A stretch of DNA of 64,000 nucleotides from an uncultured Candidatus Saccharibacteria bacterium (GTDB lineage: Bacteria > Patescibacteriota > Saccharimonadia > Saccharimonadales > Saccharimonadaceae): contig CAMZIL010000005.1 of assembly GCA_947307225.1 (NCBI GenBank), forward strand, positions 1 through 64,000. The letters run 5' to 3'. Below the pieces are notes generated by a model, which was not told where the DNA came from, made no database searches, and saw nothing but the letters and a program-made list of their open reading frames with translations. Within the stretch, counting starts at the first letter, position 1; each line of letters starts with the position of its first letter. This document shows positions 7,181-19,678 of this stretch, in pieces. The translations under genes and the position numbers were made by a program.

Positions 7181-7618
7181 ATGAAAAAATTGTTATCTAT
7201 AATCATGCTACTCGTTGTTTTAAGTATTATGCCTGCGAATGAAGCGTATGCTTGCCAGGGTTGTGGTTGCGGTTGTGATCAATGTAAAACCGGTGATGTC
7301 CCGGTCGTGACAATAAAAACCAAGACCAATCAATTCAAAAAGAAGACCAAGGCTCTCTTGAAGCCGGTCAAATCTTATGGCAAGAAATACGGTTGGACCG
7401 TGAAGACTGAAGTAATCAAAAAGACTTCGAAGAAATACTACACAAAAGTAGTCTTCAACTGTCCGGACATGCACTGCTATATGGACGTTGTCATTCGCGC
7501 CACCAAGAAAAACGGCAAAGTCACTGCCGAGTGGTGGTACAAACAAGACGGCAAGTGGTATAGAACCACGTCGGAAGGCATGAAAAAATCACTAGCCGAA
7601 TATGGCTACAAGAAATAA
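7181..7618 (+). CDS. Small secreted Cys-rich, Lys-rich protein
   Basis: 145 aa. Signal peptide MKKLLSIIMLLVVLSIMPANEAYA with a probable cut after AYA. The mature protein opens with CQGCGCGCDQCK, five cysteines in twelve residues, then a strongly basic body with aromatic strands (YYTKVVFNCPDMHCYMDVV, EWWYKQDGKWYRT). Seven cysteines in all could form disulfides or bind a metal. The downstream half resembles a small beta-rich exported domain, but I do not recognise a family. Start fixed by GAAAGGAGG 8 nt upstream. It stands alone with its own strong promoter and terminator, so it may be highly expressed. A role at the cell surface or toward the host cell is speculation. Confidence 0.82.
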   Translation: MKKLLSIIMLLVVLSIMPANEAYACQGCGCGCDQCKTGDVPVVTIKTKTNQFKKKTKALLKPVKSYGKKYGWTVKTEVIKKTSKKYYTKVVFNCPDMHCYMDVVIRATKKNGKVTAEWWYKQDGKWYRTTSEGMKKSLAEYGYKK

Positions 7619-11503: not shown

Positions 11504-13291
11504 ATGGACGAAGAAAATAATCCGGTAAATCCATTCAGCGATGCTCCAGCTGCGCCAGAAACGCCAGCAGAGCCAACTGTGGAAGAACCAATTGCTGCAG
11601 ATCCGGTTGCAGAAGCAGAACCAGTTGCAGAAGCCGAACCAGTAGAGTCGGCGGAGCCTGTAGCACCAGTCGAACCAGAAACGCCAGTATCAGAGGGTAA
11701 GCCTAGCGATACCGTCGTTACTATTCCGGCAGATAAAAAGAGTAAAAAACCAGTCATCGCCCTCGTTCTCGTCCTCTTAGTTTTGGCTTGCGGCGGCTTC
11801 GGCGCATGGTGGTTCCTAAATAACCAGGGTGGCAAGCAGAGCAACGATACCGAAAAAACGGCTAGCTCTGAGGAAATCTCCAAACTTCGTCTCACTGGCA
11901 ATGGCCTAAGTGACTTTGACCTAAAGTTCCTCAAGCTTAACGATGATGAGGTCAATAAGGTTTATAGCCCACTATCAATCAAATATGCGCTAAAGATGCT
12001 TTCCGATGCAGCTGATGGCGAGACCAAGACGCAGATCGATAATCTCGTCGGCGATTACAAGCCAAAAGCTTACATCGATAGCCAGAACCGCTCTCTCGTT
12101 AATGCATTCTTTATTTCGAATGATTACAAGAGCCAGATTCTCGATAGCTATATTAGCGGCCTAAAGACTAACTACAATGCTGACGTTGTTTATGACGATT
12201 TCAAGACGGCAGCTCCAATCAATAACTGGATTAGCAAGAAGACCTTCGGCATCATCAAGAACATGCTTTCCGACGAAGATGTTAGCCAGCTCAACTATGC
12301 GCTCGTCAACGCACTTGCAATCGATATGAACTGGACCAACCGCATTCAGTGTGCATATAACGAAGACAGCTCCAAGAATATCCCAAGCAAGGACTATGAT
12401 GTCGATTATCGCCATGAGAAATATAACGATATGGTCAACTGCGTCGATCCAAGCAACAAAGACAGCTACAAGAGTGTTGACTTCAACGGCGGTAAGGCAA
12501 AATCCCTGACAATCGCTGCAAGCGTCAACAAGTACGATATCGTCAAGGAGCTCGGCGAGAGCAAGATTCGCTCGACGGTCAAGCCAAAATATGAGCAATG
12601 GCTAAAGTCTGGCGACGCAACTAGTGAGGCCGAGAAAGATGCCGATAAATATCTCGATGGTTACATCCAGGAGCTAAAGGATAACTATGGCAAGGTTGAT
12701 GATTCTACCGACTTCGCATTCGCAGATAACGATGGCGAAAAAGTCTTCGCAAAGGATCTTCAGACCTATAGCGGTTCTACTCTCCAGTATGTCGGTATTA
12801 TGCCAAAAGAGAAAGATCTCAAAGAATACATCAGCGGTCTTACCGCAGAGGGTCTCACCGAGACTATCGGTAGCCTAAAGACTATCAAGAAAGAAAACTT
12901 CAAAGACGGTGTTATCACCCAGATCCACGGTACTGTCCCTGTATTCAAGTACAACTACGACATGCCGCTCAAGGATAATCTTCAGAATCTCGGTATCAAC
13001 GATGTCTTTGGCAAAAACTCAAACCTTTCCAAGATGACCAAGCAGGAAGGTGCCCGCATCGACTCCGTCAAGCACTTTGCTGACATCGAATTCTCGAACG
13101 ATGGTATCAAGGCTGCAGCTGCAACTTACTTTGGTGGTAAGGGCAACGCTGGTAGCTTTGACTATCTATGGGATGTTCCTGTAGAGAAGATCGACTTGAC
13201 CTTCAACAAGCCATACATGTATATTATCCGCGACAAGGATACCGGCGAGGTTTGGTTCACGGGTACTGTTTACAAGCCAACCGAGTATTAG
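11504..13291 (+). CDS. Membrane-anchored serpin (serine protease inhibitor)
   Basis: 595 aa. Residues 1-80 form an acidic Pro/Ala/Glu-rich cytoplasmic tail, 83-105 a membrane helix, and about 130-595 a serpin fold displayed outside. Serpin landmarks: VYSPLSIKYALKMLSDAADGET (helix B region), ALVNALAIDMNW, LGINDVFGKNSNLSKMT, the hinge EFSNDGIKAAAATYF (about 528-543), and the C-terminal FNKPYMYIIRDKDTGEVWFTGTV. The GxKAAAAT hinge with small residues is what inhibitory serpins need for loop insertion. The reactive loop is about ten residues longer than in alpha-1-antitrypsin, so P1 cannot be assigned. There is an extra charged insert (about 365-390). Start supported by AAAAGGAGA. It shares an operon with gpmI 9 nt downstream. 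Target protease unknown. Confidence 0.88.
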   Translation: MDEENNPVNPFSDAPAAPETPAEPTVEEPIAADPVAEAEPVAEAEPVESAEPVAPVEPETPVSEGKPSDTVVTIPADKKSKKPVIALVLVLLVLACGGFGAWWFLNNQGGKQSNDTEKTASSEEISKLRLTGNGLSDFDLKFLKLNDDEVNKVYSPLSIKYALKMLSDAADGETKTQIDNLVGDYKPKAYIDSQNRSLVNAFFISNDYKSQILDSYISGLKTNYNADVVYDDFKTAAPINNWISKKTFGIIKNMLSDEDVSQLNYALVNALAIDMNWTNRIQCAYNEDSSKNIPSKDYDVDYRHEKYNDMVNCVDPSNKDSYKSVDFNGGKAKSLTIAASVNKYDIVKELGESKIRSTVKPKYEQWLKSGDATSEAEKDADKYLDGYIQELKDNYGKVDDSTDFAFADNDGEKVFAKDLQTYSGSTLQYVGIMPKEKDLKEYISGLTAEGLTETIGSLKTIKKENFKDGVITQIHGTVPVFKYNYDMPLKDNLQNLGINDVFGKNSNLSKMTKQEGARIDSVKHFADIEFSNDGIKAAAATYFGGKGNAGSFDYLWDVPVEKIDLTFNKPYMYIIRDKDTGEVWFTGTVYKPTEY

Positions 13292-13300
13292 GAAAACAAA

Positions 13301-14878
13301 ATGTCTAAACTTCACTATGATGGGCCTGTCGTCCTCGTCGTTCTCGACGGGGTCGGCATCCGCGAAGATTCTAGTTTTAATGCCGTCAAAAAGGCGCACC
13401 TAGAAACCTATAATCACCTCTTAGAGGACTATCCATGCGCCGCCATTAATGCAAGCGGCAAATGGGTCGGTATCCCGGACGGTGACATGGGCAATAGTGA
13501 AGTTGGCCACAACGCAATGGGCGCTGGAGAGATTGTTCTCCAGCGCAGCGCTGCGGTCGAAGAAGAAATCATGGGCGGCAAGGCGTTCTCTGAGCCGGTT
13601 TGGCAAGATACGGTTCGCCGCGTCGTCGATAATGATTCGACTCTTCATTTCATGGGTATTTTCAGTGATGGAAATGTCCATTCAAATATCGCTCATCTCG
13701 AGAAGATGCTCGAGCAGGCACAAAAAGACGGCGTCAAACGCGTGCGTATTCATGCATTGATTGATGGCCGCGATGTCCCGCCTCAGAGCGAGCCAAAATA
13801 TATTCAGCGTATTGAGAAATTTGTCGAGGATCTCGGCAATCCGGACTATAAAATTGCGAGTGGTGGTGGCCGTATGGTTATCACTTGCGATCGCTATGAA
13901 AATGACTGGGGAATGGTCGAGCAAGGTTGGCGCACGCACGTATTAGGCGAAGGCCGTCAGTTCGCGTCCGCTACTGAAGCGGTTGAAACATATCGCAAAG
14001 AACAGCCAGGTCTCCAGGATCAATATATGCCAGCATTTGTTGTTGCTGAAAATGGCCAAGCCATCGGCACGATTAATGACGGTGATGCACTTATTTATCT
14101 AGATTTCCGCGCAGACCGCGCAATCGAAATCACTCAGGCCTTCACTTACGACGACTTTCCACATTTTGATCGCATCCGTCGTCCAGACATTCGCTTCGTC
14201 GGCATGACGGAGTATAACGAAGACCTTCATGTCCCGCAATATACTCTCGTAAAAACGCCAGAGTTCAAGCACTCGCTCACGAAACATCTTTCCGGTCTCG
14301 GCATTCGCCAATACGCTATCTCCGAAACGGTCAAATACGGCCACATTACCTACTATTTCAATGGTAATTCCTACGATATTCCAGCCGGCGAAGTCGAAGA
14401 AGAAATTCCTTCCTACAAAGAGCCATTCAATACTCGCCCATGGATGAAATCGGCTGAGATTACCGATCGTTTGATTGTTGCTATTGAGAGCGGTCAGTTC
14501 GATTTTCTCCGCGTCAACTATCCTGGTGGTGATATGGTTGGCCACTTTGGCGAGCTCGAGCCTACGATCATTGCTATGGAGGCAATTGATGTCTGTCTAA
14601 AGCGCATCGTCGAAGCGGTCAACAAGCTTGGCGGCGTCACGATTATTACGGCCGACCATGGCAACGCCGAAGAGCTTATTGATGAGCAGGGTAGTCCAAA
14701 AACCTCTCATACGACCAACAAGATTCCGTTTGCGATTATTGATGATACTGAAAACCGCGACAAATACCAGCTCGCGGATGGCGAGTTTGGCCTCGCGAAT
14801 GTCGCTTCGACCGTCGCTGACCTTCTTGGCGTCGAGCCGGACGAAGCTTGGCTGCCATCGATTATTACGATAAAATAA
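13301..14878 (+). CDS. gpmI: 2,3-bisphosphoglycerate-independent phosphoglycerate mutase
   Basis: 525 aa. Interconverts 3- and 2-phosphoglycerate in glycolysis using two Mn ions. Motifs: VLVVLDGVGIRED, the catalytic-serine DMGNSEVGHNAMGAG, IHALIDGRDVPP, DFRADRAIEI, NYPGGDMVGHFG and ITADHGNAEEL, with length typical of the family. It lies 9 nt after the serpin gene with a short AGGA ribosome site, so it is probably co-transcribed with it. With lactate dehydrogenase at 57529 it points to a fermentative lower glycolysis. Confidence 0.97.
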   Translation: MSKLHYDGPVVLVVLDGVGIREDSSFNAVKKAHLETYNHLLEDYPCAAINASGKWVGIPDGDMGNSEVGHNAMGAGEIVLQRSAAVEEEIMGGKAFSEPVWQDTVRRVVDNDSTLHFMGIFSDGNVHSNIAHLEKMLEQAQKDGVKRVRIHALIDGRDVPPQSEPKYIQRIEKFVEDLGNPDYKIASGGGRMVITCDRYENDWGMVEQGWRTHVLGEGRQFASATEAVETYRKEQPGLQDQYMPAFVVAENGQAIGTINDGDALIYLDFRADRAIEITQAFTYDDFPHFDRIRRPDIRFVGMTEYNEDLHVPQYTLVKTPEFKHSLTKHLSGLGIRQYAISETVKYGHITYYFNGNSYDIPAGEVEEEIPSYKEPFNTRPWMKSAEITDRLIVAIESGQFDFLRVNYPGGDMVGHFGELEPTIIAMEAIDVCLKRIVEAVNKLGGVTIITADHGNAEELIDEQGSPKTSHTTNKIPFAIIDDTENRDKYQLADGEFGLANVASTVADLLGVEPDEAWLPSIITIK

Positions 14879-16695: not shown

Positions 16696-16723
16696 AGACA
16701 TTAGTAAATAAGTGGAGTTACTA

Positions 16724-19678
16724 ATGAAAAGAATGAAGCGCCAAAGCGTTTGGCGAAGCAGGGCTTATGTGCTGTCTGTATTAGTATTTACAGTCAGTTT
16801 TATTACATCTCTCGCTTCAACTACTTCCGTAATTGCGGAAGCAGCAAAATTTAAAATTAAAGCAGCTGAAATTACTACAATGTCGGCTGGCGCAACTGGT
16901 GCTATCACCGGGTTCGACGATTCAACAATCGCGAGCGAGGTGTCTTTCTATAAGCTTAACGACAGTGCAACTTTCAAGGTAACGCTCGAGAATACCGACT
17001 CAGTTGACCATGTCATTAAGGGTATTTCCGATAATAATTCGAACGAAAACATCTCGTATTCTTATGATAATCACGCAGATGAAACCATTACGGCTGGCAG
17101 CGCATTCGACTTTGTCTTTACGGCTAAATATGTTAAGTCCGTGGCCGACATGAGCAAGCGCGCTCAGAGTCTAAGCGTCGAGTTCGCAATCCAGTTTACA
17201 GACATCGCTGAGCCAGAGACTATTAGCATCACTCCAAATACGCACGACGGTATAACGGGCAGCGTCATTATTCTTTCTATTTCGTCGCTCGGCCTAATTG
17301 TCTGCGCAGTTATTTTCATCAAGAATCACAAGCAGTCCACTAAGGCTCTCGGTGTCGCAGCGACTGTTATTGCGGCGGCTGTTATCGCTACGAGCGTCAG
17401 CGCTATTGCTACTGAAGTAAACTCCTTTACTCTAACTACGAACTACGGCCTCTACGACAAGGTCGTTGTCAGTTATGGCGATAATGACTATATTGTCGAC
17501 TACGGCAAGACACTCGAGGAAGCTGATGAAATTGAGATTCCGGGCGTGACTGGCCAAAGCTTCGTCGGCTGGCAGGACGAGGATGGCAACGATATTGATC
17601 CTACGGCTCCAATTACTGAAGACATTACAATTTTTGCCAAGACGAATATGAATCATTACTCAATCGCCTTCGATAAAAACGAAAGTGCTGCTACTGGCGA
17701 GATGAATTCGCTCGATGCTATATATGGCACACCTGTCACTTTAACTGGCAACGCATTTTCTTGGACTGGCCACACCTTCGCTGGCTGGGCCACCACGCCG
17801 ACTGGTGATGTCGCTTACGCGGATGGGGAAGAGGTCAATAATCTTACTGCCGAGAATAACGGCACAGTCACGCTTTATGCGAAGTGGGAAGATGAGACTC
17901 TCGTTCTTAACTTTAACGGTAATGGCCGCAAATTCTCTAATGGTGCGGGCGTAAATACTGTTAAGGTAACCGGCACCTGTGGTGATTCTTATACTCGTGC
18001 ACGTCAGAAATTCTCACATACACCTAATATCGATGACAATGGCGTACGCAACGGCGACTACGCGACATACATCCAAGATATCGATGTCGTTACGTTCCCG
18101 GGCGCCGCAAAACTTCATGCGGAAATCCAGTATAGCACTCAGACAGATAAAGATTGGCTATATGTTATTAAGGGCGTGTATACTGGCACGGTGTCGCAGT
18201 ATATATATGACAGCAATAAGCTCGCTGGGTATAATGGCGGGAATGACACTATGCGGACGGCATCTTTGGATATTCCAGGCGACACTGCATCCTTTGTCTT
18301 CTATTCGGATTACATGACTAACTATTATGGCTATTATGCAGTGATTGAGGCCTACGACGAAAACGATAATCTCATCGGTAGCCCGGTCGCAGACTGTAAT
18401 CGCGAGGTTTATTCTGGCGCATTCGAAGACTTGCCGACTGGCAACTATTTCTTCAAGGGGTGGTCTGAGGACATTAATGATGAGAGAGGCCTATATACGA
18501 ATATGGCCGACATTCGCGATCATGTTCCAGGCGTAGTTGGCCAAACTAAGACTCTCTATGCAATCTATGAGCAGCTTTATACTATAAAGTACGACGGTAA
18601 TGGTAGTACTACCGGTACTATGGGGGAAGCATTTACGAAGAGCGGCATGCATAAAGGCGAGTACTATTATTTGAACGCACCTAATTTCCTGCGCGACGAT
18701 TATGGCTTCATTGGTTGGAGTATGGATAAAAATGCTCAGCCGGGTGGCAGCTCAAAGATTTATGGTCCGAACGAGATGATTACGCTTAATCAGACCATTA
18801 CGGACGGCGCCGTGAATGACGGCGAAATCATCATGTATGCAATTTGGGCGCCGAAGAGTACGACCTATACCTTGCAGACCTTTAATGCGACTACGTTTGA
18901 GCTGACGAATCCGAATACGACCATAACGGCATTGACGGATACGCGCGATGGCCAAACCTATGCTGTTGCAAAATTGGCAGACGGCAAATGGTGGATGATT
19001 GAAAACTTGCGCTTCAACCCGACGGGCAAGGAATTGAATGATGAGAATACGAACCATCCAACTGCGTCGTTTGTAAACACGGCGAAGAATCTTACTACTC
19101 TAACAACTCCGGCTGCATGCGGCGATGATGGCCAGTATACCTCCGGTTGTATTAACAAGTATTCGCTTTTGATTTCCGATATTAATTCCGAGAGTACTCC
19201 TTCGCCAACGGCGACGAGTGGTCAGACCTATGAGTTTGGCGCACACTATAACTGGTACACTGCTACGGCTGGAAATGGTGCATATAGTGTCACGAACTTT
19301 AATGAAGTCACGGGTGATCTTTGCCCAGCTGGCTGGCGCCTTCCATCTAATCATTATACTGATTCGACCAAGTCTGATTTCTCGCAGCTTGATTTGGCGC
19401 TTGGCGGTAATGGCGCTATTCAATATCACGGCAATTATTCCGAAACGGAAACAAGCTATCCGAACAACTTTACCTATGCCGGTAAAGCTATCAGCCGCGT
19501 TAAAATTGAAGTCGGGCAGCGTAGTACTAATGGACAATACTGGGGCAGAACTAGTGGCCGCTCGGAAGAGTACGCCTCCTACTATCTCGTATCAATTTCG
19601 AAGAACGATATCCATTATTCTGACCAGGGGTATTTAGCGAAATCTTCATATCTTCCAATCCGCTGTCTAGCGCAGTGA
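16724..19678 (+). CDS. Large surface protein: InlB-type repeats and FISUMP domain
   Basis: 984 aa from ATG 16724. Residues 1-45 are a signal peptide or anchor. About 46-165 is an outer domain also found in the 42749 protein. At 170-175 lies TPNTHD, followed by a hydrophobic helix, a basic KNHKQ stretch, and a second hydrophobic segment ending near 228. This gives a membrane hairpin with both flanks outside. Then come InlB/Listeria-Bacteroides-type repeats (GQSFVGWQDEDG; GHTFAGWATTP with LYAKWED; GFIGWSMDKNA) and a CUB-like stretch (about 400-555). The C-terminus is a FISUMP domain: DGQTYAVAKLADGKWWMIEN, GDLCPAGWRLPSN, YLPIRCLAQ. Probable adhesin on the cell surface. It stands alone and ends in a strong terminator. 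Confidence 0.85.
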   Translation: MKRMKRQSVWRSRAYVLSVLVFTVSFITSLASTTSVIAEAAKFKIKAAEITTMSAGATGAITGFDDSTIASEVSFYKLNDSATFKVTLENTDSVDHVIKGISDNNSNENISYSYDNHADETITAGSAFDFVFTAKYVKSVADMSKRAQSLSVEFAIQFTDIAEPETISITPNTHDGITGSVIILSISSLGLIVCAVIFIKNHKQSTKALGVAATVIAAAVIATSVSAIATEVNSFTLTTNYGLYDKVVVSYGDNDYIVDYGKTLEEADEIEIPGVTGQSFVGWQDEDGNDIDPTAPITEDITIFAKTNMNHYSIAFDKNESAATGEMNSLDAIYGTPVTLTGNAFSWTGHTFAGWATTPTGDVAYADGEEVNNLTAENNGTVTLYAKWEDETLVLNFNGNGRKFSNGAGVNTVKVTGTCGDSYTRARQKFSHTPNIDDNGVRNGDYATYIQDIDVVTFPGAAKLHAEIQYSTQTDKDWLYVIKGVYTGTVSQYIYDSNKLAGYNGGNDTMRTASLDIPGDTASFVFYSDYMTNYYGYYAVIEAYDENDNLIGSPVADCNREVYSGAFEDLPTGNYFFKGWSEDINDERGLYTNMADIRDHVPGVVGQTKTLYAIYEQLYTIKYDGNGSTTGTMGEAFTKSGMHKGEYYYLNAPNFLRDDYGFIGWSMDKNAQPGGSSKIYGPNEMITLNQTITDGAVNDGEIIMYAIWAPKSTTYTLQTFNATTFELTNPNTTITALTDTRDGQTYAVAKLADGKWWMIENLRFNPTGKELNDENTNHPTASFVNTAKNLTTLTTPAACGDDGQYTSGCINKYSLLISDINSESTPSPTATSGQTYEFGAHYNWYTATAGNGAYSVTNFNEVTGDLCPAGWRLPSNHYTDSTKSDFSQLDLALGGNGAIQYHGNYSETETSYPNNFTYAGKAISRVKIEVGQRSTNGQYWGRTSGRSEEYASYYLVSISKNDIHYSDQGYLAKSSYLPIRCLAQ

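Follow-up and report, generated by a model that had tools for sequence, protein, structure and literature searches.

The locus described here raises the question of what a serpin would do on the surface of a Saccharibacteria cell, whether it inhibits proteases and, if so, whose. In the 64,000-nucleotide stretch of Candidatus Saccharibacteria DNA that was analysed (the window), an open reading frame with its ATG at 11504 and a stop codon ending at 13291 (exact coordinates) encodes a protein of 595 aa, the sole serpin of the window's genome. The Pfam family Serpin (PF00079) matched this ORF with E = 1.9e-43 and 149.6 bits (cut-off 27), in two stretches flanking an insert, and the top sequence match in the PDB was conserpin (6ee5, E = 5.8e-19). 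AlphaFold2 models of the ectodomain reached a pLDDT of 83 with 18 sequences, and a pLDDT of 88.8 with a pTM of 0.87 with 45 sequences. Foldseek comparison of the first model with the PDB returned serpins only among the 50 matches listed (TM-score by target 0.67-0.77, E down to 1.8e-22). The serpin ectodomain was accordingly delimited, from the Pfam match, the model and the PDB fold matches, to residues 118-595 (11855..13288, + strand). The initial annotation had called the product a serpin, pointed to its C-terminal FNKP strand and proposed a comparison of its predicted structure with serpin folds; the FNKP strand is indeed present, within the C-terminal signature strands FNKPYMYIIRDKDTGEVWFTGTVY (13202..13273, + strand), which were placed by alignment to conserpin and serpin B4 and are almost invariant across the family. 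The Pfam and conserpin matches and the modelled fold, with its sheets A, B and C, all agree with that assignment, and, as judged from sequence and model, we regard the product as a real serpin.

The ectodomain is preceded by a single predicted transmembrane anchor, VIALVLVLLVLACGGFGAWWFL (residues 84-105, 11753..11818, + strand; hydropathy maximum 2.57), which is kept in all insert-bearing relatives, and by a Pro/Ala/Glu-rich acidic tail (residues 1-83, 11504..11752, + strand) with 20 Asp and Glu residues versus 5 Lys and Arg. Because KKSKKP stands immediately before the helix, the positive-inside rule would place the tail in the cytoplasm and the serpin domain outside (N-in/C-out). The single hydrophobic helix, the KKSKKP motif and the charge of the tail are thus in accord with the one-helix tether and internal acidic tail proposed previously, the orientation being a prediction, and we infer a membrane-anchored prokaryotic serpin with an N-terminal signal anchor and its domain outside. 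The tail is mostly 56-158 aa long in Saccharibacteria copies and usually short (median ~24 aa) in copies from Bacilli. A lipoprotein reading of the motif VLAC in the helix was rejected by inspection, as the Cys lies mid-helix and does not occur at this position in relatives.

Residues of the hinge and the reactive loop were counted over 62 insert-bearing relatives from Saccharibacteria and Bacilli, with P numbering that assumes the standard 17-residue spacing. The hinge, NDGIKAAAAT (P17-P8; 13097..13126, + strand), is strongly conserved among these relatives, with Gly at P15 and Ala at P12 in 62/62, Ile at P14 in 61/62 and Thr at P8 in 60/62. Compared with the consensus of inhibitory hinges, ExGTEAAAA (P17-P9; PMC8233489), the Gly at P15, the AAAA at P12-P9 and the Thr at P8 agree, and the Asn at P17 and Ile at P14 differ. 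The inhibitory-type hinge (DGIKAAAATYF) noted in the initial annotation is therefore present, but is near-canonical only, with Asn and Ile in place of Glu and Thr/Ser. In insert-free relatives P17 is Glu in 12 of 13, and P14 is Thr, Leu, Val or Ile; hence, the drift at P14 predates the insert, and an aliphatic residue at this position is tolerated in the group.

Downstream of the hinge lie an extended Gly-rich loop and strand s1C, YFGGKGNAGSFDYLWDVPVEKIDLT (13127..13201, + strand), with a predicted P1 at Asn548 (13145-13147). From the P15 Gly to the residue ahead of FNKP the loop measures 33 residues, and the alignment to conserpin, which bears the antitrypsin loop, leaves an excess of 11 residues, close to the earlier estimate of about ten more than in alpha-1-antitrypsin; by the same count, the loop of antitrypsin has 22. 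A G-G-x-G motif, which the initial annotation had overlooked, is formed by Gly at P5 (56/62), P4 (60/62) and P2 (57/62), P1 is Ala (22), Gly (13), Ser (13) or Asn (9) in 57 of the 62, and the stretch FxYxxxVPVExIDLTF after GGxG is strongly conserved. In the model, residues 420-433 (P12-P2') have pLDDT values below 50, being disordered and outside sheet A, so the reactive loop is predicted to be exposed and accessible to proteases, as inhibitory serpins need.

The second peculiarity, a helical insert between sheet C and sheet B strands (residues 346-397, 12539..12694, + strand), had escaped the initial annotation. It is visible as a gap in the Pfam match, in which positions 171-215 of the profile span 139 residues of the query, and as helices in the model; it makes up the main part of an excess of ~85-95 residues in total between strands 3A and 3B. 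AlphaFold2 renders it as a helical hairpin (model helices 229-233, 235-251 and 263-277; pLDDT of the block ~85-97) that follows the sheet C strands and precedes sheet B. The closest sister group consists of insert-free serpins of one Bacilli order and of a second Saccharibacteria genus (g27), which are usually membrane-anchored and have the same style of hinge. Between s3A (NALAIDMNW) and s3B (YVGIMPK), relatives that carry the insert have 136-166 residues and those that lack it 54-70. The loop is 33-38 residues long in every one of the 62 insert-bearing copies whose hinge is intact, versus 27-32 in the insert-free relatives measured, which have no GGxG. The likeliest interpretation is that insert and long loop would both be part of one contact surface.

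Conserpin, tengpin and antitrypsin share with the window serpin the fold, the Gly at P15, the Ala-rich P12-P9 and the FNKP strand, but differ from it by the ~90 additional residues with the helical hairpin (strand 3A to sheet B), the 11 extra loop residues, the Ile at P14 and the Asn at P17. The siropins of Eubacterium siraeum and the serpin of Bifidobacterium longum are, like the window serpin, serpins of gut bacteria; the siropins are inhibitors of neutrophil elastase and of proteinase 3 (PMC5127057). Going by standard serpin lengths, the insert and the Gly-rich loop would set the window serpin apart from both. The literature searched described no serpin in Saccharibacteria, nor any with a helical insert and a long Gly-rich loop, and searching for reports of long reactive loops in bacterial serpins gave no result.

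The window's genome carries a site that matches a TM7-specific 16S primer with one mismatch, in agreement with the Saccharibacteria label of the initial annotation, and the match is exact in G021, a genome of the same genus. The insert-bearing form was detected in 16 of the 45 genomes of the window's genus. A restriction to this one genus, which we had considered, was overturned by copies in g27, a genus of the same family in which insert-bearing and insert-free forms are both present; the distribution among Saccharibacteria lineages, a survey suggested in the initial annotation, includes both genera. Another genome of the order gave one weak serpin match, and in a broad sample of the phylum only ordinary serpins were found outside the window's genus and g27. 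Three genomes of the window's genus (G011, G034 and G035; loci L007, L008 and L009) carry, instead of the insert-bearing form, an unrelated ordinary serpin of 455 aa with a full-length Pfam match and no insert, which falls as a deep outgroup in the tree and represents a separate acquisition.

Outside the Saccharibacteria, four Bacilli genomes from rumen and ileum metagenomes matched directly. A profile search of their order gave matches to the family in 43 of 288 genomes. In 30-odd of these the match covered most of the profile; in the others it was split, as is typical of serpins lacking the insert. When the whole phylum was sampled, full-length matches were limited to that order, a small-genome gut lineage which, to judge from genome size and habitat, is probably RF39. 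The occurrence of the long-loop, insert-bearing serpin in 30-odd of these 288 genomes makes the notion of a display protein specific to Saccharibacteria too narrow. In a gene tree with insert-free serpins as the outgroup, the insert-bearing copies of Saccharibacteria formed a single clade (100/95) nested inside Bacilli, with support of 99/97 for the branch uniting them with four Bacilli copies and 95/94 for the branch leaving out six basal Bacilli copies; a second tree gave the same nested picture. In AU tests, the alternative in which Bacilli and Saccharibacteria copies are separate clades was not rejected (p = 0.065, 0.152 and 0.316). The insert-bearing serpin is certainly shared across phyla, a clear case of transfer, and Bacilli as the donor and Saccharibacteria as the recipient are favoured, though not proven. 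As insert-free membrane serpins are also common to g27 and the same Bacilli order (L161-L169 and L085-L095), more than one exchange of serpins is likely. The transfer is notable because a superfamily study of 2021 saw no phylogenetic support for prokaryotes having acquired serpins horizontally (PMC8233489).

The many genomes, long contigs, single clade and lineage-typical neighbours make contamination unlikely. That the window's gene itself is mis-binned or recently degraded and plays no role in the organism might be suspected from its assembly of 50 contigs with 3.4% contamination, but we consider this extremely improbable: the serpin occurs in the 16 genomes of the genus, several times on contigs of more than 100 kb, the Saccharibacteria copies are all in one clade with a core under purifying selection, and the flanking genes are common to the closest relative, G023. 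We also considered spread on viruses or plasmids and rejected it, as IMG/VR contained no member of the family, and the only serpins found, those of a single plasmid and of an unverified phage record, were remote (26-27%). The phage record (L176, 6699-7199; MT835777.1) is a scaffold from human faeces labelled 'Bacteriophage sp.', whose serpin has 26% identity, and may be a bacterial contig.

Genomic context gave no indication of a target. The gene downstream, gpmI (13301..14878, + strand), encodes a 2,3-bisphosphoglycerate-independent phosphoglycerate mutase (TIGR01307, E = 5.6e-130) and was considered as an operon clue to function; however, it neighbours the serpin in only 1 of 12 same-genus loci examined, and the Obg-gpmI-galU neighbourhood is shared with G023 alone, in altered gene order. 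The mutase is thus an incidental neighbour, and the earlier remark that the glycolytic partner hints at no target holds. The usual site of the serpin in the genus is between groES/groEL and the genes for a Mur ligase and a VWA protein, and no conserved protease gene was found beside it across the genus loci examined. Elsewhere in the window, 16712-19678 encodes a surface protein of 988 aa that carries a Listeria-Bacteroides repeat as well as a FISUMP (Fibrobacter succinogenes major) domain and has relatives in two other loci, and 7181-7618 a small secreted protein that has a cysteine cluster, CQGCGCGCDQC, after its signal peptide and no Pfam match.

In 11 close pairs, pN/pS was 0.05-0.27 in the core, 0.14-0.58 in the insert and 0-0.95 in the loop, insert and loop usually being above the core; purifying selection on the core with a loop evolving faster in most pairs is the usual pattern of inhibitors. 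In G001 and G021, a second serpin copy lies in tandem directly beside the first (L105 6534-8309, - strand; L108 3396-5204, + strand). These second copies retain the serpin domain, with a core under purifying selection, and have lost the hinge: TVYK or ILGK replaces its small residues, which would preclude classical inhibition, and they are probably non-inhibitory paralogues. Since a paralogue could lose its hinge, that of the first copy is not kept by default, which argues that it is used; the hinge-less copies constitute a natural negative control.

We think it fairly probable that the protein is a surface-tethered inhibitory serpin that would trap external proteases accepting small P1 residues. 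With the tail in the cytoplasm, one helix through the membrane and the serpin domain presumably directed outward, a protease accepting a small P1 (predicted Asn548; Ala, Gly, Ser or Asn in relatives) would cut the loop ~17 residues past P17, whereupon the Ala-rich hinge would insert into sheet A and the protease would be caught as a covalent acyl-enzyme. As the extra loop residues are all on the P' side, the geometry of insertion would be preserved, and a docking surface is probably made up of these residues and the helical insert. The targets would be outside proteases of neighbouring microbes or of the animal gut, none of its own. We counted in favour of inhibition the serpin match and fold, the exposed disordered loop, the kept hinge, the selection pattern and, for the outward orientation, the positive-inside charge. 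Against it we counted the residues at P17 and P14 that are off consensus, the unusual Gly at P5, P4 and P2, and a loop motif conserved across two phyla beyond what is expected of an inhibitor chasing changing targets.

The same features feed the main rival, a non-inhibitory serpin in which the Gly-rich loop and insert would provide a fixed surface for binding, as an adhesin or to a partner protein or peptide, with no loop insertion. The fixation of P14 Ile and P17 Asn in insert-bearing serpins, the strong conservation of GGxG and FxYxxxVPVExIDLTF, the co-occurrence of insert and long loop without exception and a sister paralogue certainly without an inhibitory hinge would all suit such a protein. 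We nevertheless hold it to be unlikely: the small residues at P12-P9 and the Thr at P8, which inhibitory serpins alone need, are retained, and the varied P14 of insert-free relatives shows the aliphatic residue to be tolerated. An inhibitory serpin could otherwise guard the cell against the S8 subtilase secreted by itself or its sisters, and the presence of S8, which we counted against outside targets, does track the serpin in the genus (12/16 members with the insert-bearing form versus 6/29 without; Fisher p = 0.001, uncorrected for relatedness). However, S8 had no match in the window's genome or in G003, G023 and G025, the genomes of its three closest serpin relatives; these four form one S8-free serpin clade, so the association may reflect shared ancestry. 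HtrA-type proteases, considered as targets along with S8, are near-universal in the genus (44/45 members, with or without the serpin). The absence of S8 and the independence of HtrA from the serpin argue against a dedicated self-target, and we regard the guarding role as improbable.

Bacterial serpins are already known, and what is new in the inhibitory serpin favoured here is a structural variant with a cross-phylum history; the system itself is of a familiar kind. From its conserved loop, the preferred targets can be predicted in concrete terms that lend themselves to testing. A broader conjecture, which we put forward tentatively and consider doubtful, is that the sheet C-side insert and the Gly-rich, P'-extended loop form a distinct serpin architecture that co-evolved against one class of microbial proteases at cell-cell contact in animal guts, and that moved between gut Bacilli and the Saccharibacteria that may be their episymbionts. 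The transfer between small-genome gut Bacilli and Saccharibacteria hints at ecological contact of the two lineages.
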